From Paenibacillus xylanilyticus (GTDB lineage Bacteria; Bacillota; Bacilli; Paenibacillales; Paenibacillaceae): a stretch of 64,000 bases of DNA. Both the position numbers and the translations under genes were made by a program. This document shows, one piece after another, positions 10,825 to 50,444 of this stretch. Below the pieces are notes generated by a model that saw only the letters and a list, made by a program, of their open reading frames with translations, did no database searches and was not told where the DNA came from. The DNA lies in assembly GCF_009664365.1 (NCBI RefSeq), contig NZ_CP044310.1, positions 2,305,001 through 2,369,000 of the forward strand, given 5' to 3'. How positions within the stretch are numbered: position 1 is the first letter of the stretch; each line of letters starts with the position of its first letter.

Positions 10825-10877
10825 CAGCAATTGCACACAGGCTTCTCCATCAGATACAATAGAAATACAACGTGCAG

Positions 10878-10904
10878 CCCGGACAACTGTGTCCGGGTTG
10901 TTTT
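10878..10904 (+). terminator. Terminator after the FUSC-like gene
   Basis: CCCGGAC (10878-10884) pairs with GTCCGGG (10891-10897), followed by a TTGTTTT tail. Flanking ACAAC/GTTGT bases may lengthen the stem. Confidence 0.75.
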
Positions 10905-10956
10905 GTATACATAACCAAGGGATGAAGGTCATCTCAATGAACCGAGGGAGAATAAT

Positions 10957-34619: not shown

Positions 34620-37600
34620 CTACTCCACCATATGAGATGGGGAAGAGTCAAGCTGCGGCTGATTAGCAGCAGGGAAATATCCAATGTTAACTGCATATTG
34701 CAGCATGCTGGAGATGAATGAGTCATCTGCTTTTGCACAGTGAATTCCTGCTGGTTCTACATACGCTGTTGTTACCGGGCAAGCATATACATAGGCTGAA
34801 TCCTTCGCACCGTCACCTTCCAATTGGGCAATGGCGAGCTGCAAGGCCTCTGGATCCTTGCTGATGGATGAATCGAATAACCAGCTGGTATATTCATCAA
34901 AAGGCAGCGTTTCGACTTCATATCCCGCACGATTGATGGAAGCAATCAAACTATCGTAACGGATCGACTCGGGATTACAAATGTGGAATACCCGTCCAGC
35001 CGTGTCATCACGCAGAGCCAAATGCACAATAGCCTGGCTTGCATAATCGATCGGTGTGAAATCAACCAACCATTCGGCAGCAGGAGCTTTGCCGAGAAGG
35101 AGCATCGCTTTGATCATCCGGTAGAAGGCATTGCTGTCGATGTTGGACTGGAAGCGACCCGTTTCCGAATGACATGTCAGGTTACCCGCACGGTAGATGC
35201 TTACCGGTACTCCTTCCTCAGCTGCAATCATCAGTACTTTCTCCGCTTCAAGTTTGCTGTCAGAGTACAGGTTCTCTACATGCAGATCTGCCGGGAAACG
35301 GTCATACTGAAGGGATGATTCCCATTGTCCACTGAGCGCCAGATCTTCCGGTATGCCCATGGTCGAGACATGATGGAAGGAAGCGCCCGGTTTGCTGCGA
35401 ACCAGATTCAGCAGGGCTACTGTACCCTCTACATTGGTTTTGGCAAACTGTTCAGCATCTCCAAAGTGTCTTACGTCTGCCGCACAGTGAATTACCCGAT
35501 CAATTCGGGCTTGTACCTTACTGGTTTGTTCAGCGGTTAAACCGAGGTTAGGCTTCTCCAGATCTCCCTCGATAATCTCCACACGTGAAGGGAGAAGTGC
35601 ACTGATCTCAGTGCCGAAATATCCCTCCATAACCTTGCTTAAACGCTCCATGGCTGTATTACCGTCAGACGGACGACGAACAAGCGTATGGATTGTCACA
35701 TCCGAATGAAGAAGGAGCTGCTGCAGCACATGTGAACCAAGGTAACCTGTAGCGCCTGTTAGCAGAACATGCTCCGGCTTAAGAATCTCAGGGTAGCCCA
35801 GTTGGGATGCCAATTCTACCGGATGCTCCGCCAGTTGGGTCATTACGCCAGTGTGTTCACCGGATGGGGCCGTTTGTTCAGTAGTCTGCGCAAGTGACTG
35901 TACACGGAGTGCCAGGGAACGAATGGTTTTCTCTGCAAAGAAGTCGGCAATCTTCAGCTGCGGATAGTGCGGCTTGAGAATAACCAGGACATGGATTACT
36001 CGTAAGGAATCGCCACCGATCGTAAAGAAGCTGTCTTCGATTCCAAAGTCGCTGTGTCCCAGAATTTCTTTCCATGCATTGAATATAATCGCCTCGGTCT
36101 CTGTCTCAGGCATGACCCGATCCGGCCGATTTTCATGTCTTTCCTCGTTTGGTAGGGATACCATCGCTTTCCGGTGAATTTTGCCGGTAGGTGCGATAGG
36201 CATCTCATCAAGCTGACAGATCCATTTCGGTACAAAATAGGATGGAAGCTTGTCAGCCAATTGGGCTTTGATATGATCTACGGATAGAGTCGTGCCATCC
36301 TTGGAAGTGAAATATCCCACAAGCATGTTCTGACCGTCGGATTCTTTCTTCGGAATGACCACCACATCCTGAATCCCTTCAAGGCGAGCAAAGTGATCCT
36401 CAATCTCACCAATTTCAATCCGATGACCGCGGATCTTCAGCTGTGAATCACTACGTCCGACGTATTCCAGCAAACCGGTATCAAGCAGCTTGGCAATATC
36501 ACCGGATTTGTAGATTTTCTCATCAATTGCAAAAGGATTATCAATAAAGGCTTGCTCTGTACGTTCTGGTTGATTCAAGTAGCCTTTCGCCAGTGCTGGG
36601 GTAGCAATATATACTTCACCAGGCACGCCTACAGGGCAGAGCTGCTGCTCTTCATTGACGATATACACTTTGTAGTTATGGATTGGTTTACCAATCGGAA
36701 TGTTAGCCACATGATCCGGGACCTGTTCACTGATCCGGTGTGTCGTTGTCGCCACAGTACATTCGGTAGGCCCGTACACATTGACAATATCAATCTGGTT
36801 ACCAAATTTGCGCTGGAAGGCGCGAACCTGTTCTCCGTACAGGGCTTCGCCTGCAACGGTAATAATTTTAACCTTGGCCAGCTTGTGGAACCCTTCGTCT
36901 GACAGATAGGATGCAAGCTGGTTAAAGAAGATCGTAGGCAGGATCGTAATAATCGTTGTACCTGTACGCTCAATTGCTGTGGCGAACTCCTCTACAGATA
37001 CACGTTCCTCGGCAGATAACAGATACAATTCTGCTCCATAGAACAGTGCACCGATCGTATCCCAGACGGAAGCATCGAAGCTGTATGTAGCAAACTGAGT
37101 CAAAACGTCCCCGGCTTGAATGTCACAATCGCGCTGCACGACACTTCCAAGGTTCACAACCCCGCGATGGGCGACGAGTGCACCTTTCGGTTTGCCTGTG
37201 GATCCGGAGGTGTAGATGATGTAAGCGAGATCGTCTGCCTGAATATCCAGATTCGGATTACTTGCTGCAAACCCGGCCAGGCGTCCATTCACAGCCAGAA
37301 TTTGACGTACGGTCGGAATACCCGAGAATAACCGTGAAGCTTCTTCTAGAGAGGACTCCTTGGTTAAAACAAAAGAAGAAGCCGTATCTTCTACGATATA
37401 ACTGTTGCGTTCCTGAGGATGTTCAGGGTCAATCGGAACGTAAACACCGCCTGCCTTCAGAATGCCGAGCAGGGAGATAATCGTTTCCAGACTGCGTTCC
37501 ATGAAGATGCTGACGAACTCACCCTTTTGCAGTCCGTTGGATAACAGTACACGTGCGACTTGATTGGCACGTTCGTTCAATTCTCTGTAGCTATACCGGC

Positions 37601-38333
37601 CGAATGGGGACGTGATAGCAGGCGAATCGGGATACTCGGCAGCCGTAGCTTCGAACCAGCCGTGGATGGTCTGATGCTCGGGTTGAGACACACAGGTATC
37701 ATTCATCTCGCGGTACAGCGTCCGGTCAGAGGCGGACAAAATATCCACGGAGCCAATGCTTGCGTCTTCATCCCGAATCATCGAGAGAAGCAGAGTTTGA
37801 TAGTACTCAGCATATCTCATCACGGTTGCTTCTTTCAGAAGGGATGCATCAAAGAACAAGTCGAGCGTGTATACATTCTGCTCCTCACGGATACTCCAAT
37901 TGAGCACCTGCGGAGCCTGAGGAAGCTGAACACTATTAAACATAAACAAGGTTTCCGGGTAGGCACCTGGCTGCATCGAATCTTCTTTTTCTTGCAAAAG
38001 GGTAATTTGACGAATTAGCTCACGGAAGCTCATCTTGCCATGTACCTGCAGCAGCAGAACTGATGCAGAACGATCCGGATCAAGCGTGCCAATGCCTAAT
38101 TCCTGTTCTCCTGATAACCGGAACAACAAGGCAGCATATGCCGACAGAAGCGCGTTATAAATTGACGTTGAGCCATACTTCTGAGTGAGTTCACGGCTCT
38201 GTGTTGGCTGCAGCTGTATATGAGCTGATTCATACGAAAATGATTGTTGACGGCGCCCAAAATCCAGTGGAATCTGGAGAACTGGCAACTCAGATTCCAC
38301 TGTCTGGGAAGATGAAGAGTGATGATCGATCAC
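34620..38333 (-). CDS. Single-module NRPS: truncated condensation remnant, adenylation, carrier, thioester reductase
   Basis: The 1237-residue product activates one amino acid, loads it on its own carrier domain and releases it reductively. Residues about 1-205 resemble only the C-terminal half of a condensation domain, with no HHxxxDG. Adenylation (about 215-715) has YIIYTSGSTGKPKGA, YGPTECT, YKSGD and the GKIHRK lysine. The carrier serine is in FTIGGDSLRV (about 770). The reductase (about 850-1237) has LLTGATGYLGSHV and the YSDSK tyrosine/lysine pair. The specificity residues read by eye as D-A-W-T-T-A-V-V-A, closest to aromatic codes. Start GTG 38333 has AAGGAGG 9 bases upstream. It lies 42 bases after a chemoreceptor gene. 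The product, an amino aldehyde or alcohol, is inferred. Confidence 0.85.
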   Translation of the reverse strand: MIDHHSSSSQTVESELPVLQIPLDFGRRQQSFSYESAHIQLQPTQSRELTQKYGSTSIYNALLSAYAALLFRLSGEQELGIGTLDPDRSASVLLLQVHGKMSFRELIRQITLLQEKEDSMQPGAYPETLFMFNSVQLPQAPQVLNWSIREEQNVYTLDLFFDASLLKEATVMRYAEYYQTLLLSMIRDEDASIGSVDILSASDRTLYREMNDTCVSQPEHQTIHGWFEATAAEYPDSPAITSPFGRYSYRELNERANQVARVLLSNGLQKGEFVSIFMERSLETIISLLGILKAGGVYVPIDPEHPQERNSYIVEDTASSFVLTKESSLEEASRLFSGIPTVRQILAVNGRLAGFAASNPNLDIQADDLAYIIYTSGSTGKPKGALVAHRGVVNLGSVVQRDCDIQAGDVLTQFATYSFDASVWDTIGALFYGAELYLLSAEERVSVEEFATAIERTGTTIITILPTIFFNQLASYLSDEGFHKLAKVKIITVAGEALYGEQVRAFQRKFGNQIDIVNVYGPTECTVATTTHRISEQVPDHVANIPIGKPIHNYKVYIVNEEQQLCPVGVPGEVYIATPALAKGYLNQPERTEQAFIDNPFAIDEKIYKSGDIAKLLDTGLLEYVGRSDSQLKIRGHRIEIGEIEDHFARLEGIQDVVVIPKKESDGQNMLVGYFTSKDGTTLSVDHIKAQLADKLPSYFVPKWICQLDEMPIAPTGKIHRKAMVSLPNEERHENRPDRVMPETETEAIIFNAWKEILGHSDFGIEDSFFTIGGDSLRVIHVLVILKPHYPQLKIADFFAEKTIRSLALRVQSLAQTTEQTAPSGEHTGVMTQLAEHPVELASQLGYPEILKPEHVLLTGATGYLGSHVLQQLLLHSDVTIHTLVRRPSDGNTAMERLSKVMEGYFGTEISALLPSRVEIIEGDLEKPNLGLTAEQTSKVQARIDRVIHCAADVRHFGDAEQFAKTNVEGTVALLNLVRSKPGASFHHVSTMGIPEDLALSGQWESSLQYDRFPADLHVENLYSDSKLEAEKVLMIAAEEGVPVSIYRAGNLTCHSETGRFQSNIDSNAFYRMIKAMLLLGKAPAAEWLVDFTPIDYASQAIVHLALRDDTAGRVFHICNPESIRYDSLIASINRAGYEVETLPFDEYTSWLFDSSISKDPEALQLAIAQLEGDGAKDSAYVYACPVTTAYVEPAGIHCAKADDSFISSMLQYAVNIGYFPAANQPQLDSSPSHMVE

Positions 38334-38375: not shown

Positions 38376-40142
38376 TTAGGACTTGCTTACATTAAAGTGA
38401 GAGATCAATTCCTGTAATTCCTCGGACATGCTGTTCAAACGGGTAGAAGAATCAACAAGGGTGGACAGGGAAGCTTTCTGGTCATCAACGGAAGCGGCAA
38501 TACGCTCACTGCTTTCTGCTGTTTTGCTAACGCTGGCAGACAGATCATCTGCGGTAGCAGTCATTTCCTCTGTACTTGCAGAGATTTCTTCTGTCGCACT
38601 GGAAACTTCCTGAATCTGATTCGATACTTTCTTCGCAGCTTCCAGAATATCTTCAAACAATTTTCCTGTCTGATCTGCAACGTCAAGTCCGGTATCGACT
38701 TCTGCCGTACCTTTTTCCATTGCGCGGACAGCTTGTTTGATCTCGGTTTGAATCTCTTCAATTAATACGGCGATCTGGCTAGTGGATTGTTCGGATTGTT
38801 CAGCAAGCTTACGAACTTCACCAGCAACGACGGCAAATCCTCGGCCCTCTTCACCAACACGAGCTGCCTCAATGGATGCATTCAAAGCCAGCAGGTTGGT
38901 TTGGCTGGAAATGCCGGAGATGATGTTCAGGATATCTCCGATTTCCTGTGAACGGCTCTCCAGAACCTGGATTGCTGAAGCCGTATTCTTCACGGATTCC
39001 GTAATCAGTGTCATTTGCTGAGATACTTGGCGTACAACCGTGTTACCCTGTTGGGAACGGCGTTCCATTTCATAAGCTTCATCAGCTACATTCGCGGAAC
39101 TGCTGGCAATCGTCTGAATGACAGTCGCCATTTCAGCCATGGCACGGGCGCTATCAATACTTGCCTGTTCCTGTCCACGGATGTTGGAGGTGATTTGCGT
39201 TACATTGCTATTGATGGTATCAGCGTTCTCGCTGTTTTTCTCAGATACCTCATACAGCTCTTTGGCTGATTGGTTAACCTCTTGAGAGGTGACTTGCACT
39301 TTAACGATAGTGTCATTGATTTTGCGAACCATCGTGTTGAACTTCTCGTTTACAAGTCCGAGGTCGTCTTTTCCTGTCGGAATGTTAACATTCAAATTAC
39401 CCCGGCTAACGTCATCGATACCTTTGATCAGGTGACGAATTGGGGATAGCGTATTTTTAACTACAAGGTATTGGATAATCAGGAACAACAGAAGGAATGC
39501 AACCAGAATGATGATACCGTTTTTAAGCAGTGATTTCAGTCCGGCAGGTACTGCTGTTGCATCTGCATCGACTGCAAAGTAAGAGAAGATTTTGCCGTTG
39601 CTGTCCTTGATCGGATAAGCAATAGTTGTCCATGTGCCAAAATCATCTGAATAGAAAGTCGTGAAGGTTGGACGGTCCGTATTAAGCATTTCTTTGAGGG
39701 CATTCGCCACAACAACAGGTTGTTCATACATGTCGCCAATATTAACATTATCGCTCTGGAATGCTTCTCTCAGATTGGTTGGCATGGCTACGAGAGAAGT
39801 TTCTCTTTTCGTATCTCCGCCAAGCTCTACACCAAAGATATAAGCTTGGGCAATATTCGGGTAGTATTCTTGCATTTCATCAAAATAAGCACGCAACTGG
39901 GTTTGCACTTTTCCATCATAACTGCCTTCTGCAATAGCTGCCTCTACGTCGGCTGGGTTGATTCCCTCTGCCCACTTTTTAGTGATTTGTTCTACTTGTC
40001 CATGCAGCTGGTCTACGAGAACCGTCTTTTGGAAGTAATAGCTGCTCGCAATAAGTGCTACCCCGATAATAATGATGTTGGTGAATGAAAGTAATAAGTT
40101 TTTTGAGAAAAAGGACATGCTTTTCCAACTAAATGATTTCAC
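38376..40142 (-). CDS. Methyl-accepting chemotaxis protein
   Basis: A 588-residue transmembrane chemoreceptor. TM1 is about 14-36, an extracellular Cache-like sensor about 37-205, TM2 about 208-228, HAMP about 229-285 and the coiled-coil signalling domain about 300-588. The CheA/CheW-binding hairpin reads [33 protein letters not shown]. The sensor has the [22 protein letters not shown] block common in Cache domains, which usually bind small metabolites. The start is GTG 40142, with GGAG upstream. No terminator is visible before the NRPS gene 42 bases downstream. No sigma-D promoter was found by eye. Confidence 0.92.
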
Positions 40143-40784
40143 TAAATTCCACTCCTGATCTTCTTGTAATTAACAAACCTTTTATTTGCTTGCATGAATG
40201 CAGCCAATCAAGTCATTTGTTGATCCCCCTCCAGAGCTTATGTATGCGACCATGGTCTTGGGTTCGCAGTCTTAATGCAGAGACTTTTGTACCTCATAAT
40301 CCATAGGTGTCTAATTATTAAAACACATCTATACTTAATATGTCGTATGAAATGTGGTTAAATTGAATAGTTTCGTTAAAACTTTTTTAATAATTTACAT
40401 ATTTGCGGACATGACACTTAATACATAGGTATTTAGAACTGTTTATTTGGAGGAATTTCCATTTTCTAGTCTCCGTCTTTATTTTATAACAGGCTGATAC
40501 AAAAAAACACTTTAAAACTTGGAAATGGATCCAAAGATGACAATTAGTGTTAAGAGCAGGAACGGCCCTTTGTCTATGAAGGAGAACGTAGGATGCAAGT
40601 TTTCTTATACCATTTTAACTAACCATCAACTTACTTAGCAGGAAATGGCGAAATCCGGGATTTGTCGTTAGATCAAATTTCCTGCTGCATGGCATTCGGC
40701 ATGGATATACATCGGAAGTGGTTTTATCTATAATAAAGACAGTGTGCATTTTTCAAATCATAAGCAGGCGGGGGTTTATTTTAG
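40143..40784. other. Long intergenic region between the chemoreceptor and rpiA
   Basis: This 642-base AT-rich stretch lies between divergent genes. A minimal open frame of nine codons (40593-40622) has AAGGAG 8 bases before its ATG. Just after it is a 10-bp perfect inverted repeat (AGCAGGAAAT at 40637-40646, ATTTCCTGCT at 40677-40686) with an inner AAATC/GATTT pairing. A TATAAT near 40729 could be the rpiA -10 but has no clear -35. The remainder shows nothing recognisable. Confidence 0.4.
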
Positions 40785-41456
40785 ATGAATCTGAAAAAAA
40801 TTGCAGCAGAGCGGGCGGCAGAATACATTCAGGATGGCATGAAGGTTGGACTCGGAACAGGCTCGACGGCATATTTTGCGATATGCAGACTGGGAGAGCG
40901 TGTACGCGAGGGGCTGCAAATCCAGGCTGTGGCGACTTCGGAAGCTTCGGACAAGCTGGCTCGCGAGTGGGGAATACCAATCATCCCATTCGACCAGATT
41001 GGCAGACTGGATATTACTATTGATGGTGCAGATGAGGTCGATCCTGATTTCAATCTGATCAAGGGCGGGGGCGGAGCACTTTTACGTGAAAAAATTGTGG
41101 CGGCTAACAGTGATAAACTCATCATTGTTGCTGATGGCAGCAAGGCGGTTCAACAATTGGGTCAGTTTCCACTGCCGGTAGAAGTAGTTCCTTTTGCATC
41201 GGAATGGACCTTCCAGGCGCTGGAGAAGCTGGGCTGCCGACCAGAATGGCGTATGAATGAAGATGAGCGCTACCTTACAGACAACGGAAATCTGATTGCG
41301 GATTGCCGGATGGAATCCATCGTCAACGCGGCTGAGCTCAATGTACAACTCAACATGCTGCCAGGCGTAGTCGATAATGGTTTGTTCGTTGACATGGCCG
41401 ATACGGTGATTCTGGCCAAAGATGACGGTAGTATTGATGAGCGCCATCGTTCCTAA
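40785..41456 (+). CDS. rpiA: Ribose-5-phosphate isomerase A
   Basis: RpiA interconverts ribose 5-phosphate and ribulose 5-phosphate in the pentose phosphate pathway. The 223-residue product has the substrate-binding GLGTGSTAYFAI (about 23-34), DGADEVDPDFNLIKGGGGALLREK (about 83-106, with the catalytic region) and a VADGSKAVQQLG segment. The ending, GLFVDMADTVILAKDDG, is standard. A G-rich site (GGCGGGGG) precedes the ATG. It is separate from other pentose genes here, though xylose released by the nearby glycosidases would feed this pathway. Confidence 0.95.
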   Translation: MNLKKIAAERAAEYIQDGMKVGLGTGSTAYFAICRLGERVREGLQIQAVATSEASDKLAREWGIPIIPFDQIGRLDITIDGADEVDPDFNLIKGGGGALLREKIVAANSDKLIIVADGSKAVQQLGQFPLPVEVVPFASEWTFQALEKLGCRPEWRMNEDERYLTDNGNLIADCRMESIVNAAELNVQLNMLPGVVDNGLFVDMADTVILAKDDGSIDERHRS

Positions 41457-41601
41457 GATCGATCAGATGACTCTAGGATACATGTGTTTGGCTTATTGAT
41501 TGTAATGATTTGTTCTGAGAAGTGCTGTGTGAGGGATGAAAACGCTGCTTGGCATCGAAGCACAGCCTGAATTTGCAAACAATTGACGGAGGATTATGGA
41601 A

Positions 41602-42063
41602 ATGCCGAATACGGAGGACAATCGGGAACTATCTTTGCAATTATTCGTGGTTCTCGCCCGAGCATACAATTCTGTTACATCAAGGTCCAATCGTGACATT
41701 CAGAGTCATGGACTGAATACGACAGAATTCGGGGTACTGGATTTGTTATATCACAAGGGCCCACAAGCCTTGCAAAAAATCGGTGAGAAAGTGCTAATGT
41801 CCAGCGGGAATATAACCTATGTAGTGGATAAGCTGCAAAACAAGGATTTGCTGTTTAGACGTGCATCCAAGGAAGACCGCCGTGTGATTTACGCGGAGCT
41901 GACGGAAAAGGGAAGAAATCTATTCACCCAAATATTCCCTGGGCATCATCAGGTTATCATTGATGCAATGGAAGGTTTAGAGCCAGCCGAAAAAGCGGAT
42001 GCGATTCGCTTGCTGAAGAAACTAGGACTTGCTGCTGAAGGAAAAACCGACTTGCGTCCATAA
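41602..42063 (+). CDS. MarR-family transcriptional regulator
   Basis: A 153-residue winged-helix repressor-type protein: TTEFGVLDLLYHKGPQALQKIGEKVLMSSGNITYVVDKLQNKDLLFRR covers the DNA-binding helices and ASKEDRRVIYAELTEKG the wing. It is similar in layout to MhqR/OhrR-like regulators but has no cysteine in the usual N-terminal sensing position. ATG 41602 is preferred because GGAGG is 9 bases upstream; the ATG at 41596 is only 3 bases away. It is monocistronic with a strong terminator, so its target may be elsewhere. Confidence 0.87.
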   Translation: MPNTEDNRELSLQLFVVLARAYNSVTSRSNRDIQSHGLNTTEFGVLDLLYHKGPQALQKIGEKVLMSSGNITYVVDKLQNKDLLFRRASKEDRRVIYAELTEKGRNLFTQIFPGHHQVIIDAMEGLEPAEKADAIRLLKKLGLAAEGKTDLRP

Positions 42064-42080
42064 CGCAGGCCGGTTTTTTT
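42042..42080 (+). terminator. Terminator overlapping the end of the MarR gene
   Basis: AAAAACCGACTTGCGT (42042-42057) pairs with ACGCAGGCCGGTTTTT (two wobbles) around a 5-base loop, with a T run ending at 42080. The stop codon is in the loop-proximal part. Confidence 0.85.
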
Positions 42081-42303
42081 ATGTGAAAAAAAAGGGCATG
42101 AACTGGCTAGATGACTTGCAGGAATGCTCATAATATAGGAAAATTGTTCTAATATGCAGCTCCGAATGAAATGTTTCTCCTTGGAGTTCATGTATAATAT
42201 ATAATGCATTTCCCGATCAATAGCTGATTGAAATCGAATCGACTCTTATCGTGGATATACATGATGGTTGATACGATTGCACAGCAAGAGGAGGGATAAC
42301 GTA

Positions 42304-43392
42304 ATGACCCATCAGGAAGCTGGGGAACGCTTGCTGAAAGCAGCAGGTGGGCTGGCTGATAAAATAACGGAGAAGCAGTATACGCTGCAACCTGAGTTGC
42401 TTGAGCGTTTTGGTGAAAATGGCAGAATGCGGACTCAACAGGATTCGCAATATAGTTTGAATTATCTGGCTGAGAGCGTTCTGGTTAAGAGTCCTAACCT
42501 GTTTACTCATTATATATCTTGGCTCAAAACATTGCTGGCAGGTTATCACGTTTCGGCGGATGATCTGGCCATTAATTTAAATCTAATCAAAGAGACGTTG
42601 GAAGAAGAGTTTGATGATGCATCCAAGTCACTTGTTCTAGATTATCTGAAAATGGGAATCTACCAAACCCAGCATCATGAGGTAGCACAAGGATTCGTCA
42701 ACGAATCTTTTCCCTACGGCCATGCTGCCAAATCTTATTTGCAGGCGCTTCTGGATAGCAGACGCCAAGAAGCTTTTAGCATTGTTGAAGCCGAGCTGGA
42801 AAGCGGAGCAAGCATTCGTGATATTTATCGTTATATTTTTCAACCCACTCAATATGAAATAGGCCGCATGTGGCAGCTTAGCCAGATTAGTGTCGCTCAG
42901 GAGCACTTCTGTACGGCAGCCACGCAGGCTATTATCTCGCGGCTGTATCCCCGCTGGTTGATCCATGAGCCGCAGCAGAAAAAGCTGGTTGCAGCCTGTG
43001 TAGGCAGTGAGCAGCATGAGATCGGTTTGCGTATGCTTGCTGACGTGTTTGAGATGGAAGGTTGGGATACGTATTATTTGGGGGCAAATGTTCCGAATGG
43101 CAGCCTGCTTGAGGCGATCGAGCGTCATCAGGGTGATGTGGTTGCTATTTCAGTAACGATGACATTTCATCTTCATCTTGCCAAAGAACTTATCCAAATG
43201 ATTCGTAATCACCCGGCTACCTCGCATGTGAAAATCATGGTAGGAGGTTATCCATTCAACATTGATCGGGAGTTATGGAGGACCGTTGGGGCAGATGGTT
43301 ATGCTCCCGGAGCTGATGAGGCTGTTGCCGTTGCAGAACGTCTGCTGGCTCAGCAATCTGCCAACTGCAACGTTGGTATGATTCGCGAATAG
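42304..43392 (+). CDS. Cobalamin (B12)-binding protein with photoreceptor-type Wx9EH motif
   Basis: The 362-residue product has a helical N-terminus (about 1-130, including SLNYLAESVLVKSPNLFTHY), a four-helix B12-capping domain (about 145-220) and a Rossmann-like B12-binding domain (about 226-350). Trp190, Glu200 and His201 form the exact Wx9EH signature known from CarH/LitR-type light sensors. Glu236-x-His238-x-x-Gly241 matches the cobalamin-ligating loop, with SVT and VGGYPF blocks following. Unlike CarH there is no MerR DNA-binding domain. ATG 42304 with GGAGGG is preferred over an upstream ATG at 42268. Fourteen bases downstream is a soluble hybrid histidine kinase, a likely partner. Light sensing is inferred. 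Confidence 0.85.
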   Translation: MTHQEAGERLLKAAGGLADKITEKQYTLQPELLERFGENGRMRTQQDSQYSLNYLAESVLVKSPNLFTHYISWLKTLLAGYHVSADDLAINLNLIKETLEEEFDDASKSLVLDYLKMGIYQTQHHEVAQGFVNESFPYGHAAKSYLQALLDSRRQEAFSIVEAELESGASIRDIYRYIFQPTQYEIGRMWQLSQISVAQEHFCTAATQAIISRLYPRWLIHEPQQKKLVAACVGSEQHEIGLRMLADVFEMEGWDTYYLGANVPNGSLLEAIERHQGDVVAISVTMTFHLHLAKELIQMIRNHPATSHVKIMVGGYPFNIDRELWRTVGADGYAPGADEAVAVAERLLAQQSANCNVGMIRE

Positions 43393-43406
43393 AGAGGAAT
43401 GACGCA

Positions 43407-45113
43407 ATGTCTAATGAAGCTGGCGAGATCGAAAAGCTGCGTAAAACGATTGAGCATTTATCTGATCAGATTATTCGCAGTAAGGAACAGGAAGAGCGAA
43501 TTCTTAGTGAATTCTCCGAAATGAACAACGAACTGGTGACGCTACAGCGTCTGCTTGCTAAAAATAACGTAAGTCTGGATGCCGCTCGAAAAGAAGCCGT
43601 ATCCGCAGGGGAATCCAAGAGTTCATTTATAGCCGTAATCAGCCATGATTTCCGTACACCCTTAAATGGAATATTAGGCATGGCTGAACTTCTGCAGCAT
43701 TCTCCCTTGTCCGAAGAGCAGCAGCATTCGGTTCAAGTGATTCAAGAAGCAGCGAGACTTCTGCTGAAGCTGATTCAGGACCTTCTGGACTTTTCCAAAC
43801 TGGAAGCAGGTCAGATGCGTCTTGAAATGGGAGATGTCGAACTGGAGCCTACGTTTAACTACATCGTTCGTTTGCTGGAGCCCAAGGTGATCCAAAATGG
43901 GAACAAACTGGCCGTGGAATGTGATCCCCGAATTTCGGGGGTTCTTGAGGGAGACTCCACACGAATTACACAGGTTTTGATGAACCTGATTCAAAATGCC
44001 AACAAATTTACAAAAGATGGATCAATACGCATTCAAGTTGCCCTGGTTCGGGAAGATGAGAACACCCAATGGATCCGGTTTGAGGTGAAGGATACGGGAA
44101 TCGGAATTGCTGAAGAAGATCAGGAAACCTTGTTCCAACCCTACGTTCAAACGGAAAAAGGCCGTTCCAAGGAATACGAAGGAACAGGCCTGGGGTTATC
44201 CATATGCCAGTCTCTTGTGAGGTTAATGGGCGGTCAGATTGGAGTCATTAGTCAAGAGGGCCAGGGCTCGACATTCTGGTTTGAAATTCCAATGGGACGC
44301 AAGACAGAACCGGTAAAAGCCACAGTTCCGACGGGACAAGATACATTGCATGACTCTGGCGCTTTGCTACAGGAACCCTATTCTCGACCAATCCTGCTCG
44401 CAGATGATAATCTGATTAACCGCCAGGTTGTTTTGATGCAGCTTAAGAAACTTGGGATCACCGAGGTCGATTCGGTATGCAACGGAGAAGAGGCTGTTGC
44501 GGCCTTTCTAAGCAAGAGGTATGGAATCATACTAATGGATAACATGATGCCGGTTATGGATGGACTTGAGGCAGCACGCAAAATAAGAGCCATGGAGCAG
44601 GATGAAATGCGTCATCCCATTCCAATTATTGCAATGACAGGCAACGTCATGGACGACGAGAAAGAAAAATGTTTTGAAGCTGGAATGAATGATTTCATTG
44701 GCAAGCCGTTTACACTGGAATCCTTAAAAAACGTCATTCAAAAATGGCAGCATCCCTCGGATCCTCGGGAAGTGCTGAATATGAGCATAGTCAAAGAGAT
44801 TGGCGAATTGAACAGCGACGGTGAACAGTCGATCCTTGAAATGCTGCTGGACATGTATCGTAACGAAACACCTGGTAAAATTGAAGTGCTTCGGAGATAC
44901 GTTGTCTCCGGAGACCATATTGCAGCTGCGGAATGTGCCCATGATCTGAAATCCAGCAGCTTGAGTCTAGGAATAGAATACTGTTCGACACTTTTTGCAA
45001 GGATTGAACAGCTCGCTAAAACTGGTCAGGTGAGGAAGGCTGAGCCATTGCTGGGTGAATTGATACCCGCATACCAGGAAGCCTGTGAAGCTTTGGAGAA
45101 GGTAATCATTTAA
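43407..45113 (+). CDS. Soluble hybrid histidine kinase with receiver and Hpt domains
   Basis: The 568-residue protein has an N-terminal coiled coil (about 5-65) with no recognisable sensor and no membrane segment. HisKA has His80 in VISHDFRTPLNG. The ATPase has NLIQNANKFT, DTGIGIA and GTGLGLSICQ (about 193-268). The receiver (about 328-445) has the acidic LLADDN, phospho-acceptor Asp378 in ILMDNMMP, and Lys433. The Hpt domain (about 475-568) has His512 in CAHDLKSSS. This is a complete His-Asp-His phosphorelay lacking only the output regulator, which is not in the window. It is coupled to the B12 protein 14 bases upstream, which probably supplies the input. Confidence 0.9.
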   Translation: MSNEAGEIEKLRKTIEHLSDQIIRSKEQEERILSEFSEMNNELVTLQRLLAKNNVSLDAARKEAVSAGESKSSFIAVISHDFRTPLNGILGMAELLQHSPLSEEQQHSVQVIQEAARLLLKLIQDLLDFSKLEAGQMRLEMGDVELEPTFNYIVRLLEPKVIQNGNKLAVECDPRISGVLEGDSTRITQVLMNLIQNANKFTKDGSIRIQVALVREDENTQWIRFEVKDTGIGIAEEDQETLFQPYVQTEKGRSKEYEGTGLGLSICQSLVRLMGGQIGVISQEGQGSTFWFEIPMGRKTEPVKATVPTGQDTLHDSGALLQEPYSRPILLADDNLINRQVVLMQLKKLGITEVDSVCNGEEAVAAFLSKRYGIILMDNMMPVMDGLEAARKIRAMEQDEMRHPIPIIAMTGNVMDDEKEKCFEAGMNDFIGKPFTLESLKNVIQKWQHPSDPREVLNMSIVKEIGELNSDGEQSILEMLLDMYRNETPGKIEVLRRYVVSGDHIAAAECAHDLKSSSLSLGIEYCSTLFARIEQLAKTGQVRKAEPLLGELIPAYQEACEALEKVII

Positions 45114-45115
45114 AG

Positions 45116-45162
45116 GGTTTGCTGTCTTAACGAATTAGGTTAGGGCAGCAAGCCTGTTTTTT
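45116..45162 (+). terminator. Terminator after the B12 protein - kinase operon
   Basis: GGTTTGCTG (45116-45124) pairs with CAGCAAGCC (45146-45154, one wobble), followed by TGTTTTTT. Confidence 0.75.
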
Positions 45163-45245
45163 CGCCTGAAAACGAGTGTACATAAGAACATGTATCCTTA
45201 ACTGTGTTAGGGGTAGAAGATCTTGAGAGGGAGAGAGAAGCATAC

Positions 45246-46199
45246 ATGTTAATATACGGGATTCCCGCACTTATTCTGGTCATTCTTATTGTGACTTGGT
45301 TCGGAGGACTATACTTTTTCAAAACAGCTATTCGCCGAGCGCCAAAACCATTTCTAATCGATAATCCGAATCTAATGCCTGAACCGGATAATGAATTGAT
45401 CAGCAGTGCTTCAGACCTGGAGTGGTTGGACATGCAGGATGGTGAAATGGTAAGCATCACCTCTCATGATGGGTTGAAATTGCAGGGAATATGGTTGGCT
45501 TCAACTGGGAAGTCGAGTCAGACGGTAATTCTGGCGCACGGGTATTCCGGGAGAGGCAGAGAAATGGCTGGTTTTGCAAGGTACTATGTAGAGAAAAGAG
45601 GCTGTAACGTACTCATGCCTGATGATCGAGCTCATGGTCACAGTGAAGGAGACGTCATCGGATTCGGCTGGCTGGATCGGAAGGATTACGTCAATTGGGT
45701 CCAGTGGGTGATCAACAAGGTAGGCAACCAGACAGACATTGTGCTGCATGGTATCTCCATGGGCGGTGCAACGGTTCTTATGACAGGCGGGGAGTCTCTG
45801 CCGGATCAGGTAAAAGCCATCGTGTCAGACTGCTCCTATACATCGGTGAAGGATGAGCTTACGTTTCAGTTGAAACAATTGTACAAATTACCGCCCTTTC
45901 CATTTATCCCTGTGACAAGTCTGATCTCCAAATGGAAGGCAGGGTATTCCTTCGGGGAAGCATCGGCTCTCAAACAGCTCACCAAGGTGCGGGTTCCTGT
46001 TCTATTTATTCACGGAGAGGCGGATACCTTTGTCCCTACAGAGATGGTGTATCGGCTTTATGAAGCTTGTCCTACGGAAAAAGAGCTGCTGACGATTCCC
46101 CGTGCAGGTCACGGTACAGCTTTTCAGGTGGATCGAGTGCGTTATGTGGAAGTCCTTGATGCCTTCTTGAACAAGATAATGATGCAGCGCGCAAATTAG
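45246..46199 (+). CDS. Alpha/beta hydrolase with N-terminal membrane anchor
   Basis: A 317-residue serine hydrolase. After one hydrophobic segment (about 2-24) comes the alpha/beta fold, with oxyanion-side VILAHGYSGRGREM, nucleophile Ser in HGISMGGAT, Asp in HGEADTFVP and His in RAGHGTAF, a complete triad. It resembles the Bacillus YqkD/YfhR group, whose substrates are unknown. I chose ATG 45246 so that the membrane segment starts the protein; an upstream start at 45204 lacks support. It precedes a small zinc-ribbon membrane protein. Confidence 0.83.
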   Translation: MLIYGIPALILVILIVTWFGGLYFFKTAIRRAPKPFLIDNPNLMPEPDNELISSASDLEWLDMQDGEMVSITSHDGLKLQGIWLASTGKSSQTVILAHGYSGRGREMAGFARYYVEKRGCNVLMPDDRAHGHSEGDVIGFGWLDRKDYVNWVQWVINKVGNQTDIVLHGISMGGATVLMTGGESLPDQVKAIVSDCSYTSVKDELTFQLKQLYKLPPFPFIPVTSLISKWKAGYSFGEASALKQLTKVRVPVLFIHGEADTFVPTEMVYRLYEACPTEKELLTIPRAGHGTAFQVDRVRYVEVLDAFLNKIMMQRAN

Positions 46200-46250
46200 T
46201 TTAATATCGTGGGTAGTTAATAGTAGGTGCTTGTAACAAGGAGGTGCAGC

Positions 46251-46601
46251 ATGCCGCGATCACGAAGAGTTTGTTCTTACTGTCAACAGGAAATGGGAGA
46301 AGACGAGTTCAAATGCAAAGCATGTGGCAATCTCGTTGAAATGAAGACCGTTCCTGCAGAGACAACACAAATGGAAGAATACGAGGAAGATGTATTGGAT
46401 CGTTACTCCATAGGTCTGCTCATTCTAATTGCGATTCTTCTTCCACCGATAGCGATTGCCATTGGCGGGGTAATGTTATTTAATGACGATCCTTACAAAA
46501 GGGACGCCGGGAAAATGCTTGTGACAGGTGCCCTGCTCGTGTTAGTCATTTGGGCCATCATTCTAATTTCGATCTCAGGAACGCTGACAATTCAATTCTA
46601 G
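46251..46601 (+). CDS. Zinc-ribbon membrane protein of unknown function
   Basis: The 116-residue product begins with a zinc ribbon of two CxxC pairs (CSYCQQEMGEDEFKCKAC, about 8-25). An acidic linker and two hydrophobic helices (about 56-78 and 90-112) follow. AAGGAGGTG upstream of ATG 46251 is a near-perfect ribosome site. No function is known; similar small zinc-ribbon plus membrane proteins are common in Bacillales. It lies between a hydrolase and a methyltransferase gene, both in the same direction. Confidence 0.8.
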   Translation: MPRSRRVCSYCQQEMGEDEFKCKACGNLVEMKTVPAETTQMEEYEEDVLDRYSIGLLILIAILLPPIAIAIGGVMLFNDDPYKRDAGKMLVTGALLVLVIWAIILISISGTLTIQF

Positions 46602-46622
46602 ATTATTACGGGGGTGCCTTTC

Positions 46623-47336
46623 ATGGGAAATGAACAATTCGAAGCAGCGCGCAAAGCGGAGGCAGGTTACCATTCGAACTTTTATCAGAATAATGAACTA
46701 TTTGAAGCCGGAACGTGGATGGCGAGACCGATGCCAATGGTGATGGAGATGCTGGAACGTTTGCTTGCACACAAATCGGATCTGCGAGTGCTTGATCTGG
46801 GGTGCGGAGTAGGGAGACACACCATTCCAATTGCACAGCGTCTGCAGCAAACGAACAGCGAGGTTATTGGTGTGGATCTGCTGGACGAAGCCGTTGAAGG
46901 ACTTCGGAAATATGCGAAGAAATATCAGGTTGATCATATGGTAAAAGCCGTGAAAGCAGACGTGGAGCATTATGATATCAGGCCCAATACATTTGATTTT
47001 ATTGCAGCTTGTTCCTGCCTGGAACACGTATCCGATGAAAATGCTTTTCTGAAAGCGCTAAGTCGTCTTCAGGCAGGCACACGCACAGGTGGAATTCATT
47101 GCATCACGATGAGTACAAGTGTAGAGGAGCAGGAGATTAGCACTGGACGGCGAATTGAGCCTTTGATCGAACTAAATCTGTCAACAGCCAAGGCGACCGA
47201 ATTGCTTGAAGAGGCATATGCAGGATGGAATATCCTGCTTCAGGAACACGTAACTCAGACCATTGAAGAAGAAAAGTACGATGAGCCGACACAGTTCCGC
47301 TGCGAATTGCTTCGTTTTGCCGTACAGAAGCAATAA
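46623..47336 (+). CDS. Class I SAM-dependent methyltransferase
   Basis: A 237-residue methyltransferase with the SAM-binding motif I VLDLGCGVGRHTIPIA (about 55-70), acidic motif II VIGVDLLDEAV and motif IV FDFIAACSCLEHVSD. The substrate cannot be deduced. ATG 46623, 8 bases after CGGGGG, is preferred to GTG 46614, which sits inside that G-rich site. It follows the zinc-ribbon gene by 21 bases and may share its transcript. Confidence 0.87.
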   Translation: MGNEQFEAARKAEAGYHSNFYQNNELFEAGTWMARPMPMVMEMLERLLAHKSDLRVLDLGCGVGRHTIPIAQRLQQTNSEVIGVDLLDEAVEGLRKYAKKYQVDHMVKAVKADVEHYDIRPNTFDFIAACSCLEHVSDENAFLKALSRLQAGTRTGGIHCITMSTSVEEQEISTGRRIEPLIELNLSTAKATELLEEAYAGWNILLQEHVTQTIEEEKYDEPTQFRCELLRFAVQKQ

Positions 47337-47386
47337 CAGAACCTGCCGGGAAGTATGAGGTTATGCATCCCGGCTGTTCTGCTTTC
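47337..47386 (+). terminator. Hairpin after the methyltransferase gene, weak terminator
   Basis: CAGAAC...GCCGGGA (47337-47351) pairs with TCCCGGC...GTTCTG (47368-47381), but only CTTTCT follows, so termination may be partial. Confidence 0.45.
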
Positions 47387-47441
47387 TATGACATAAGGAA
47401 ACGTCGTGAATACAGTCTATTATCAGAGTATGGGGGATACG

Positions 47442-48428
47442 ATGAATACATATGTGGTAGGTATTGATGGTGGCGGAAGTCATACAAGAGTGGCTGTAGC
47501 CGATGGAGATGGACAACTGTTGTCCTATGTTGAAAAGGGAGGTTGCAATCGTTATCACGATTCCAATGCTGAGCAGCATGTGCTCGGAGGCATAGCAGAA
47601 GCGCTGGAGCAGGCTGGCATTAAAGGAGAACAAGTGGCTGCCATTCAAGCGGGTATGGCAGGTCTGGACCGGGAAGAAGAATTCACCTGGGCCGAGGGTG
47701 TTCTTGCCAAAACAGGCATCCTTGGGAGGAGAAGTGCCGTAAACGATACACATATTGCTCATACAGCTGCCTTTAACGGTAGGCCTGGAATCGTGGCAAT
47801 TGGGGGCACCGGGTCTTTGATCCTTGGCAGGACGGAGCAGGAAATCTGGCTCCGAAACGACCAATTTGGTCACTATGCTCCCACGGCAGCGCGTTTTCTG
47901 TCCTACGATACGGTGCATTCCGTTCTGGCAGGCCGATATGAGCCAGAGGATCATCCCTTCGTCGAACAGATTCTTGCATATTGGAATATGCGTTCAGTGC
48001 CAGAGCTTGCAGCGCTTGGAGCTGCAGGGTTTGCTGATGATAAACAGGCGATGAACCGCAAATTCAGCCAAATGGCACCCTTGGTGACGGAAGCTGCCGC
48101 TCAGCAAATTCCACTTGCGATGAGGGTATGTGACTCGGCAGCAGATACAGCTGTTGTGAGTATTCTTATGCTGGCAAGCTGTTTTCAATCTCAACAGGTC
48201 TCTTACACACTGACTGGAAGCTGCCTGACCTCATCATATATGAAGGCTGCTGTTCAGAAAGGGTTAGGACAAAACCATCCATCGACAGGAAAAGAGTTCG
48301 ATTACATATCCAGCGAATTGCCAGCCGTTGGCGGCGCAATCCTGGATGCTTTTCAATTGGCTGGTATTCAGGTGAATCAGGGTACCCCCGCTGCGCTTCG
48401 GAGTCAGCTACAGGGGTATGGGACTTGA
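47442..48428 (+). CDS. BadF/BadG/BcrA/BcrD-family ATPase, probable N-acetylglucosamine-type sugar kinase
   Basis: The 328-residue product has the ASKHA kinase fold: phosphate-1 loop VVGIDGGGSHTRVAV (about 4-18), VNDTHIAHTAAF, adenosine-side IVAIGGTGSLILG and a later YTLTGSCLTSSYM block. Bacterial members of this size include N-acetylglucosamine and N-acetylmuramic-acid kinases (MurK/NagK-like), so a cell-wall amino-sugar kinase is the best guess. ATG 47442 with GGGGGA just upstream is preferred over an upstream start at 47406. No other amino-sugar genes adjoin. Confidence 0.82.
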   Translation: MNTYVVGIDGGGSHTRVAVADGDGQLLSYVEKGGCNRYHDSNAEQHVLGGIAEALEQAGIKGEQVAAIQAGMAGLDREEEFTWAEGVLAKTGILGRRSAVNDTHIAHTAAFNGRPGIVAIGGTGSLILGRTEQEIWLRNDQFGHYAPTAARFLSYDTVHSVLAGRYEPEDHPFVEQILAYWNMRSVPELAALGAAGFADDKQAMNRKFSQMAPLVTEAAAQQIPLAMRVCDSAADTAVVSILMLASCFQSQQVSYTLTGSCLTSSYMKAAVQKGLGQNHPSTGKEFDYISSELPAVGGAILDAFQLAGIQVNQGTPAALRSQLQGYGT

Positions 48429-48493
48429 ACTTTGACAGGCTAACGACTACAATACGATAACGGAATGAAGCAAGTCATAGGAGGAATATAAGA

Positions 48494-48931
48494 GTGTTGA
48501 TTAATCTGAAATCACGCATACAGGAGCCGGAAGTGCAGGAATTGCTGTCCTACTCGGTTTTCCCGGACCCGGAGCAAGTCGGTCATGCGCTGCAGCAATA
48601 TGTGAATAAGGACGAGCTTCTGCTGGATGGATATGAGGATGAGGGACAGTTGGTCGGCTTGGTTGGGTATGAGAAAACGGGAAACAGCGAGATTACCATC
48701 CAGCATATTGCGGTATTGCCGGAGAACCGTTTTAAAAACTATGGCCGTGGCATGATTGCACAGCTGCTGGAGAAGTATAATCCGGACAAGCTCATCGCGG
48801 AAACGGATCAGGAAGCTGTGGAATTTTATCGTAATACTGGCTTTGTCGTATACAGCTTGGGTGAGTTATATCCAGGTGTCGAACGATTCCGTTGTGTACT
48901 GGAAAAAGACGAGGATGCAATCGAAGAATAG
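48494..48931 (+). CDS. GNAT-family N-acetyltransferase
   Basis: The 145-residue product has the acetyl-CoA-binding core ITIQHIAVLPENRFKNYGRGMIAQL (about 58-82) and the late EFYRNTGFVVYSLGE motif. The GTG start has AGGAGGAA 7 bases upstream. The acceptor is unknown. Its terminator has been split by the insertion sequence that follows, so transcription past this gene now runs into the IS end. Confidence 0.83.
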   Translation: MLINLKSRIQEPEVQELLSYSVFPDPEQVGHALQQYVNKDELLLDGYEDEGQLVGLVGYEKTGNSEITIQHIAVLPENRFKNYGRGMIAQLLEKYNPDKLIAETDQEAVEFYRNTGFVVYSLGELYPGVERFRCVLEKDEDAIEE

Positions 48932-49037: not shown

Positions 49038-49847
49038 TTAGGCAGCTTGATTAAAATGAGTTCGGTATTCTACCGGGCTCATTTTAAATTTTGCTTTCAT
49101 TCGTTTCGTGTTGTAGTATTCGATATATTTTTTAAGTTCTTTTTTGAAATACTCTAAGCTTTCAAATTCCTTCAAATAGAGGAATTCTGATTTCATTATC
49201 CCGAAGAAATTTTCCATCACTGAATTGTCGTAACAATTACCTTTACGAGACATACTTTGTACAATTCCTCTAGATTCAAGCTTTGTACGATAGGGCTTCA
49301 TTTGATAGTGCCAGCCTTGATCAGAATGCATCAGTAGCTGATGGTCCTCTGGCAAACGTTCTAAAGCTTGATCTAACATCTCTGAAACAAGGGAATACGT
49401 TGGCCTTGAGCCAATGGTATACGTAATAATTTCCCCATTAAATAAATCTAGTACAGGCGATAAATAAAGCTTCTCACCAAATAATTTAAACTCAGTAATA
49501 TCGGTGACCCACTTTGCATTAGGTACTTCCGATGTGAAGTTTCTATTTAAAATGTTTGTTGCGATTTTACCTATCGTACCTTTGTACGATTTATATTTTT
49601 TCATGCGTACTAAGCACTTTAAACCTAACTCTTTCATAATGCGCTGGACCCTTTTATGATTCACTTTTTGCTGGCGATTCGCTAGTTCATCACAAATGCG
49701 TCGATAGCCATAACGACCTTCATGTTCATCATAGATTGCTTGAATCTCCACTTTTAAGTCCAGATCTGGATCTAGTTGATCCAACTTCTTTACTACATTG
49801 TAATACGTGCTACGTGGGATTTGTGCGAATGCTACAAGCGCCTTCAC
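49038..49847 (-). CDS. IS3-family transposase OrfB (DDE integrase part)
   Basis: The 269-residue part given here has an N-terminal HTH_21-like region and an integrase-core domain with the DDE residues: Asp in WVTDITEFKL, Asp in LMHSDQGWHYQ and Glu in SVMENFFGIMKSE. The frame stays open upstream to the A9 tract at 49901-49909, reading ITKKDKVKVIYELRQKYP, so the real protein is probably an OrfAB fusion made by -1 frameshifting. The GTG at 49847 is only the first possible start codon and has no clear ribosome site. Confidence 0.9.
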   Translation of the reverse strand: MKALVAFAQIPRSTYYNVVKKLDQLDPDLDLKVEIQAIYDEHEGRYGYRRICDELANRQQKVNHKRVQRIMKELGLKCLVRMKKYKSYKGTIGKIATNILNRNFTSEVPNAKWVTDITEFKLFGEKLYLSPVLDLFNGEIITYTIGSRPTYSLVSEMLDQALERLPEDHQLLMHSDQGWHYQMKPYRTKLESRGIVQSMSRKGNCYDNSVMENFFGIMKSEFLYLKEFESLEYFKKELKKYIEYYNTKRMKAKFKMSPVEYRTHFNQAA

Positions 49848-49879
49848 TGGGTACTTCTGCCTTAATTCATAGATGACCT

Positions 49880-50392
49880 TTACTTTGTCTTTCTTGGTGA
49901 TTTTTTTTTGCTTTGAACTAAGGCATTTAACTTTTTTAAGTATTCATTTTCCATACGTAGACGTTGGATTTCTGCTTGAAGGGCTTCTGTAGAGTCTTCA
50001 GTTCGTGTTGGCTTTGTTGGTTTACTGGATTTTTTCTTCAAGGATGGACGCCCCTTTTTCTTCGAAATGAGCGCATCTAACCCTACCGTATTAAGCTTTA
50101 TCCTCCACGTTCGAATTAATGCTGGAGAGGAAATATTAAAGATGACTGCAGCTTCGTTAGGAGATATCCCCATTTCGTTCATATTATTAAGTACGTCCAT
50201 CTTAAACTGCATAGTGTAGGAAGTATAGGACTTTTTAAAGGCGGCTAACCCGTGATACTCAGCTTGTTTAATCCACATCCGTACAACTTCTTGATTCGCC
50301 CCAAGTGAATTAGCAATTTCCCTTACACTTTCCGATTTGCTTTGATATCTAATAACTGCATCCATTTTTTGTTCGTTTGTAAATTTAGCCAT
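49880..50392 (-). CDS. IS3-family transposase OrfA (DNA-binding part)
   Basis: The 170-residue product has two helix-turn-helix regions (VREIANSLGANQEVVRMWIK and, later, ISPNEAAVIFNISSPALIRTWR), then a leucine-rich coiled coil (LQAEIQRLRMENEYLKKL) that mediates multimerisation in this family. The start at 50392 (MAKFTNEQ) has GGAGGT 11 bases upstream. That site is inside an inverted repeat with the IS end (50398-50444). The frame ends just after the A9 slippery run. Confidence 0.88.
   Translation of the reverse strand: MAKFTNEQKMDAVIRYQSKSESVREIANSLGANQEVVRMWIKQAEYHGLAAFKKSYTSYTMQFKMDVLNNMNEMGISPNEAAVIFNISSPALIRTWRIKLNTVGLDALISKKKGRPSLKKKSSKPTKPTRTEDSTEALQAEIQRLRMENEYLKKLNALVQSKKKSPRKTK
49901..49909 (-). 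promoter_or_regulatory. Probable -1 frameshift site joining OrfA to OrfB
   Basis: On the coding strand, AGC is followed by nine A. Zero frame reads three AAA codons and stops 5 codons after the tract; slipping back one base enters the OrfB frame (ATC ACC AAG AAA). IS3 elements commonly use such A-rich sites. Confidence 0.7.
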
Positions 50393-50397
50393 AGAAA

Positions 50398-50444
50398 AAC
50401 TGCACCTCCAATTGTTGATAATGTCTAACAATTGGGGTGCAGTT
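50398..50444 (-). repeat. Inverted repeat covering the IS right end and the OrfA ribosome site
   Basis: AACTGCACCTCCAATTGTT (50398-50416) and AACAATTGGGGTGCAGTT (50427-50444) are reverse complements except for one extra base. In RNA reading leftwards from outside, the GGAGGT of OrfA would be paired in this hairpin. Confidence 0.75.

Follow-up and report, generated by a model that had tools for sequence, protein, structure and literature searches.

Two adjacent genes of the soil bacterium Paenibacillus xylanilyticus, open reading frame (ORF) 1 and ORF2, probably constitute a two-gene light-signalling unit, in which a photocobilin encoded by ORF1 would gate a phosphorelay in trans through the N-terminal coiled coil of a hybrid histidine kinase encoded by ORF2. 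The genes lie in a 64,000-nucleotide stretch of the chromosome (contig NZ_CP044310.1, positions 2,305,001 to 2,369,000), which was analyzed as a whole and is called here the window; coordinates are those of the window unless a locus (L) number precedes them. The proposal is based on domains, key residues, folds, operon structure, conserved pairing and an adaptor common to the effectors, all of which were computed here. The two genes are:

42304..43389, + strand, ORF1, predicted photocobilin of 362 amino acids (aa), ATG at 42304, stop codon 43390-43392
43407..45110, + strand, ORF2, soluble hybrid histidine kinase of 568 aa, ATG at 43407, stop codon 45111-45113

Domain structure of ORF1

Sequence profiles and structural models led us to classify ORF1 as a predicted photocobilin with the globin domain first and the cobalamin-binding domain second. 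Its features are:

42304..42678, + strand, globin domain of the bilin type (photoglobin), covering the first ~125 residues, from profile, AlphaFold2 and fold searches
42442..42444, + strand, Asp47, counterpart of the bilin-contact Asp270 of SasPcob, placed by an ungapped extension of three residues
42520..42522, + strand, Trp73, equivalent to Trp296 of SasPcob, which lies between bilin and corrin
42730..42945, + strand, four-helix-bundle part of the cobalamin-binding domain, PF02607, residues 143-214 (E 5.3e-13)
42871..42906, + strand, adenosyl-pocket signature W190-x9-E200-H201
42982..43326, + strand, Rossmann part of the cobalamin-binding domain, PF02310, residues 227-341 (E 5.1e-27)
43009..43026, + strand, E236-x-H238-x-x-G241, with His238 as predicted lower Co ligand

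A Pfam search of ORF1 (E up to 1) returned B12-binding_2 and B12-binding and no other domain; no DNA-binding domain, including the MerR type, was found. An earlier prediction, made from the DNA sequence alone, had described a cobalamin-binding protein without a DNA-binding domain and with the Trp190-x9-Glu200-His201 and Glu236-x-His238-x-x-Gly241 motifs, and on each of these points the analysis agrees. The residues are exact, and W190, E200-H201, E236, H238 and G241 are invariant in all 20 sequences of alignment A1, which took in 20 of the 25 intact orthologues. Trp190 is present in 76/76 two-domain ORFs from the fetched loci and Glu200-His201 in 75/76, the exception being a decayed ORF (L069); many of these 76 rows represent the same genomes, fetched twice. 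Both patterns used to assign membership of the cobalamin domain, W-x9/10-EH and E/D-x-H, occur in ORF1, and His238 pairs with SasPcob His108 in the sequence alignment.

The best sequence matches of ORF1 among solved structures are the photocobilins 8j2x/8j2w (1.5e-26) and also 8j2y. The AlphaFold2 model of the full-length protein, with a predicted local distance difference test score (pLDDT) of 87.2, matched best the cobalamin domain of SasPcob 8j2w (Z 24.3, 208 residues aligned, root mean square deviation (rmsd) 2.0), and gave a Z of about 19 against the CarH/LitR fold. The earlier assignment to the CarH/LitR type of cobalamin protein holds for the signature, but the N-terminal third is a photoglobin, and among solved structures the photocobilins are closest. 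A CarH-type identity was rejected owing to the absence of a DNA-binding domain in the Pfam search.

Residues 1 to about 125, which the original prediction left uninterpreted, correspond to the bilin-type globin domain. This domain was detectable only by profile and fold model; in this third of the protein Pfam gave only MetOD1, at E 0.13, below the cut-off. A profile of 18 N-terminal domains (A2) searched against the sequences of the PDB matched 8j2x (2.6e-7), ApcE (0.009) and phycocyanin alpha (0.016), and 12 of its 16 matches at E up to 1 were photocobilins or phycobiliproteins, the other four being unrelated (E 0.45-0.85). Residues 50-101 of ORF1 align to the globin domain of 8j2x, a match that is weak by itself (i-Evalue 0.51). 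The globin domain modelled alone had a pLDDT of 87.6, and in Foldseek all 50 rows among the matches listed were phycobiliproteins or smURFP, with a best E of 2.4e-4 and only one match at E 0.001 or better. Structural comparison with VIA gave Z 17.3 to allophycocyanin and Z 15.8 to residues 226-346 of 8j2x (120 aligned, rmsd 2.7), where helical models can reach a Z of 14 without relationship.

In SasPcob, Asp270 and Trp296 contact biliverdin (PMC10979010). Their counterparts Asp47 and Trp73, located with a SasPcob numbering offset of +5 anchored on Trp61 and Glu71-His72, are retained in 73/76 two-domain ORFs, and the three exceptions (L029, L030, L051) have a broken N terminus. The position of the phycobiliprotein Cys is occupied in ORF1 by Thr44, three residues before Asp47 (TQQD), suggesting that a bilin would sit non-covalently, as in SasPcob. 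A bilin is thus the predicted second chromophore of ORF1, and on these sequence features the protein may bind both adenosylcobalamin (AdoCbl) and biliverdin and respond to light.

The photocobilins SasPcob (8j2w/8j2x) and AbDPcob (8j2y) combine, like ORF1, a cobalamin domain with a bilin globin and carry the W..EH and ExH motifs, and the two SasPcob residues in contact with the bilin, Asp and Trp, have counterparts in ORF1. On the other hand, the domain order is reversed in ORF1, and its predicted partner is a hybrid kinase that forms a distinct protein, encoded by the neighbouring gene. A photocobilin class with a C-terminal AdoCbl domain is mentioned in PMC10979010. CarH/LitR proteins have the AdoCbl photoreceptor signature and fold in common with ORF1, but their MerR DNA-binding domain is absent from it, and the genome contains a separate CarH-like gene. 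BBAG-2 and the bilin-binding globins of Myxococcales also adjoin B12-binding proteins, and BBAG-2 binds biliverdin (PMC10151467); these globins are encoded by separate genes and have a Cys-containing motif, whereas the globin of ORF1 is fused and Cys-less.

The hybrid kinase and its pairing with ORF1

The features of ORF2 are:

43407..43610, + strand, N-terminal coiled coil, residues 1-68, proposed docking or signal helix
43524-43562, + strand, conserved coil core NNELVTLQRLLAK
43617..43811, + strand, HisKA domain, phospho-accepting His80 in SHDFRTP (43641-43661)
43950..44294, + strand, HATPase_c domain with N, G1 and G2 boxes
44391..44738, + strand, receiver domain, phospho-accepting Asp378 in LMDNMMP (44532-44552)
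44844..45095, + strand, Hpt domain, His512 in AHDLKSS (44937-44957)

Pfam recognized HisKA, HATPase_c, Response_reg and Hpt in ORF2, all above their cut-offs, and the kinase motifs and catalytic residues are intact. No sensor or input domain was found at E up to 1, in agreement with the soluble HisKA-ATPase-REC-Hpt kinase lacking a sensor that had been proposed. The further claim that only a coiled coil stands in place of the sensor is correct for this lineage, but in related kinases the coil is preceded by a PAS-like domain. The ORF2 coil has no further match in the genome below E 0.4, and the best paralogous kinase scores 290 bits against 1243 bits for ORF2.

ORF2 starts 14 bases after the stop codon of ORF1, the spacing given in the original prediction, and both genes are on the + strand. 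In 295 Paenibacillaceae genomes, relatives of ORF1 were found in 73 (cut-off E 1e-20), relatives of ORF2 in 77 (cut-off E 1e-95) and both in 72. The two genes are adjacent and on the same strand in all 72, with 8-399 bases between the matched segments; the longest gaps, of about 370-400 bases, represent an N-terminal extension of the kinase. Conserved adjacency had been put forward as the check on which the two-gene model depended, and the genes are indeed kept together. ORF1 without ORF2 occurs in a single genome (G099), where both genes are remnants. The genes flanking the pair in the window are kept in near relatives; elsewhere the pair persists without them, and at four loci (L072, L073, L078, L081) a check for eight further genes of the window found none next to it. 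These results indicate conservation of the pair far above chance expectation. In a strain of P. polymyxa both genes are present as side-by-side remnants (L060, 6001-6881, on the same contig as L068).

Comparison with two relatives gave dN/dS (nonsynonymous over synonymous divergence) of 0.010/0.088 and 0.051/0.882 for ORF1 and of 0.024/0.258 and 0.095/1.252 for ORF2, a third relative being saturated. Both genes are under purifying selection.

A common adaptor on kinases and GGDEF proteins

The kinases of distant Paenibacillaceae (e.g. L052, L071, L073, L076) have about 105 additional residues followed by the coil. No Pfam model recognizes this region in the two tested (L052, L071), and by eye it appears PAS-like. 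The window kinase begins at the coil, without the PAS-like part, which it seems to have lost while retaining the coil.

A photoglobin profile detected 13 of 398 sampled Bacillota genomes, seven of them outside Paenibacillaceae. In three of these seven the photocobilin gene adjoins a hybrid kinase (L118, L119, L121) and in two a GGDEF protein (L120, L123). Another (L122) encodes the globin and the cobalamin domain in two distinct genes, with no kinase found at the locus. The last (L124, genome G683) was rejected, as it holds two short photoglobin-like pieces on opposite strands in which the profiles give no domain. At L119 a group II intron-type reverse transcriptase/maturase ORF (9522-10946; RVT_1, GIIM) lies within the cobalamin domain of the photocobilin, whose coding sequence resumes near 11061.

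A profile of the PAS-like region built from five Paenibacillaceae kinases alone matched the N termini of the kinases of L121 (2.9e-21) and L118 (3.3e-17) and of an ORF of L138 (4e-12), and also the GGDEF proteins of L123 (1e-12) and L120 (2.7e-5). None of five control signalling proteins gave a domain E below 1, and among 1000 shuffles the lowest E was 0.1. In the coil, NNE, R48 and K52 are invariant in 13/13 aligned N termini of Bacillota effectors, kinases and GGDEF proteins together. Since the same adaptor stands ahead of two unrelated outputs beside the same kind of photoreceptor, it is likely to be the contact site. The data thus point to the adaptor as the place where the photocobilin would be contacted, for which only the coil remains in the window. 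A more general scheme, to which we give about an even chance, is that dual-chromophore (B12 plus bilin) photocobilins act on a soluble phosphorelay solely in trans, through an exchangeable adaptor (PAS-like domain plus NNEL-type coil) placed before a hybrid kinase or a diguanylate cyclase, that in Paenibacillus the coil alone serves, and that loss of the sensor leaves the kinase unrestrained.

Outside Bacillota, the phylum to which L062 belongs (by its title a Myxococcales metagenome-assembled genome) has a photoglobin in 9 of 235 genomes. L062 and L138 have a PAS-like kinase within the same gene run (E 1.5e-6 and 2.1e-15 with the PAS-like profile of Bacillota), L140 has a different hybrid kinase directly downstream, and at L139 and L141 kinases lie on the opposite strand, 0.7-1.4 kb off; no kinase was found at L142-L145. 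The N terminus of the L061 kinase, which had been included in the PAS-like model of the locus survey, was discarded as not significant against the Bacillota profile (E 0.041). Kinase pairing outside Bacillota is frequent, not universal.

Proposed mechanism

From these features we infer chromophore binding, a light response, contact with the coil, a sign of control and an output, as follows. In the dark ORF1, with AdoCbl bound, would dimerize head to tail; green light would break the Co-C bond, shift the helix carrying Glu200-His201 and alter the shape of the dimer. The dark dimer and the Glu-His helix change are proposed by analogy with SasPcob and AbDPcob. Biliverdin, held non-covalently near the corrin by Asp47 and Trp73, may adjust the response or broaden it into the red. 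ORF1 would contact the N-terminal coil of ORF2 and thereby set autophosphorylation, and the phosphate path, as read from the motifs, would run from His80 to Asp378, then to His512 and on to an unlinked response regulator.

Our guess is that the kinase is held back by the dark form of ORF1 and set free by light. Photocobilins in the light state activate a diguanylate cyclase domain supplied separately, but SasPcob without biliverdin had an effect of opposite sign on diguanylate cyclase (PMC10979010), so the sign of control for ORF1 is not safely predictable. The statement in the original prediction that B12 photoreceptors are mostly DNA-binding repressors overlooks these photocobilins, which control diguanylate cyclase also in trans (PMC10979010).

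Opposing evidence and alternative explanations

Several observations weigh against the proposed unit. A kinase without an ORF1 match occurs in 5/77 genomes (G195, G224, G021, G194, G258), although G195 has an ORF1 remnant and the G194 kinase has a stop. Seven of the 73 ORF1 matches are interrupted by stops (G070, G259, G220, G282) or fragmentary (G099, G148, G177), and none of the 72 paired genomes has an internal stop in the kinase. Decay of the sensor ahead of the kinase is consistent with a sensor whose main role is restraint of the kinase; equally, it shows kinase action to be possible in the absence of the sensor. At L061 and L062 separate genes encode the cobalamin part and the globin part, and the coil motif is not conserved. 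A home-made receiver profile revealed no consistent receiver neighbour as output regulator at 55 loci: receiver proteins besides the partner kinase were present at L061, L062, L072, L081, L118 and L119, and a match at L066 was dismissed as a piece of that locus's own kinase. With the same profile the window ORFs at least 80 aa long gave no second receiver protein, in agreement with the earlier statement that the output regulator is missing from the window. The supply of cofactors adds two further points. Cobalamin adenosyltransferase was present in 80/80 genomes, with and without ORF1, and so discriminates nothing. Heme oxygenase (PF01126) is missing from 19/73 ORF1 genomes and lies beside a bacteriophytochrome gene at 15 of 18 sampled loci (one match partial).

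The host itself has genes for both a cobalamin adenosyltransferase and a heme oxygenase, which could supply the chromophores. Its genome also carries a CarH-like MerR-B12 gene with W-x9-EH and ExH (L002, 1384-2316, - strand), and its heme oxygenase gene adjoins a phytochrome with PAS and GGDEF domains (L086, 7098-10375); three light-sensor types are probably present in the host. Heme oxygenase was found in 54/73 genomes with ORF1 against 19/222 without it, and within the genus in 31/36 against 2/8, counts in which relatedness is ignored. As it mostly adjoins a phytochrome, it is weak support for the use of a bilin by ORF1, and we do not take it as proof of biliverdin use.

One alternative is that the pair reports the supply of AdoCbl or the form of cobalamin, the kinase being set by apo versus bound ORF1 and light being incidental. 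One domain can do both, AdoCbl alone having lowered AbDPcob activity relative to the apo form (PMC10979010), and the presence of the adenosyltransferase in all 80 genomes examined would suit such a sensor. We nevertheless consider it unlikely, as the Trp and Glu-His of the light signature are kept almost throughout the two-domain ORFs, the cobalamin domain is fused to a bilin-type globin whose contact residues are conserved, and the genome also has a CarH-like gene and a phytochrome.

It is also improbable, in our judgement, that the genes are co-transcribed without contact between their products, ORF1 acting on another protein and the kinase being tuned by something else. The five genomes with a kinase lacking an intact ORF1, and decayed ORF1 copies beside intact kinases, would be explained in this way; adjacency in 72/72 genomes, persistence of the pair where the flanks differ and the occurrence of one adaptor on both types of neighbour, kinase and GGDEF protein, would not.

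Very unlikely is a sensor of heme or bilin status, in which the globin would bind biliverdin or another heme breakdown product and signal heme turnover: the co-occurrence of ORF1 with heme oxygenase and the overlap of the split photocobilin of L122 with a monooxygenase gene speak for it, but the heme oxygenase is mostly associated with phytochrome and missing from part of the ORF1 genomes, and the cobalamin signature is left unexplained. At L122 (7754-9135) the photoglobin gene of the split photocobilin overlaps a gene of the ABM family of monooxygenases (PF03992). This family includes heme-degrading enzymes, and its member at L122 could supply a heme-derived ligand.

Transcription unit and surroundings

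Further features of the locus are:

42051..42069, + strand, terminator-like site of the upstream MarR gene, dividing it from ORF1-ORF2
42134..42148, + strand, TATAGGAAAATTGTT, possible promoter or operator upstream of ORF1, from comparison of 11 upstream regions
42290-42295, ribosome-binding site GGAGGG of ORF1
45115..45155, + strand, intrinsic-terminator-like hairpin of 17 pairs followed by a T run, closing the ORF1-ORF2 pair

The hairpin has a fold z of -4.6, with none of 200 shuffles equally stable, which bears out the suggestion that the pair has its own terminator. The scan for terminator-like sites found 5 against 3.0 expected in shuffles. The 42134-42148 element is nearly invariant across the upstream regions of the 11 relatives, and no second exact copy was found within the window. 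A sigma-70 scan of 42000-45300 gave 4 sites against 4.9 expected, none on the + strand between 42070 and 42303. Rfam at its gathering threshold had no match in 40000-48500, indicating that no B12 riboswitch is present there. The nearest named record to ORF1 is a P. illinoisensis protein, 98% identical. Elsewhere in the window are a large ORF resembling a non-ribosomal peptide synthetase with, by eye, an apparent terminal reductase domain (34620-38333, - strand) and two ORFs that resemble, also by eye, an IS3-type transposase pair (49038-50431, - strand).

Significance

Schneider et al. reportedly described in 2022 a photoglobin family in which a globin and a B12 domain form a predicted light-sensing unit with gene-neighbourhood links to signalling domains. 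For stand-alone photocobilins, PMC10979010 gives a diguanylate cyclase test and predicted interaction networks; no other assigned partner was found in the parts of the literature examined, and the term "histidine kinase" was not found in the main text of that paper. In the same partial literature we found nothing linking a photocobilin with a histidine kinase, and searches returned no report of a photoreceptor with a B12-binding domain together with a histidine kinase in Paenibacillus. Photocobilins and the control of enzymes by contact are already published; the conserved kinase pairing and the exchangeable adaptor were not found in the sources available, a comparison outside which the 2022 photoglobin paper stands.

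Genome comparison thus allows a photocobilin partner to be named, one that is retained in many genomes and has a putative docking element amenable to mutation. The pair would make control of a phosphorelay by B12- and bilin-dependent light sensing directly testable in non-photosynthetic bacteria, and may provide a compact split optogenetic part for green and possibly red light.

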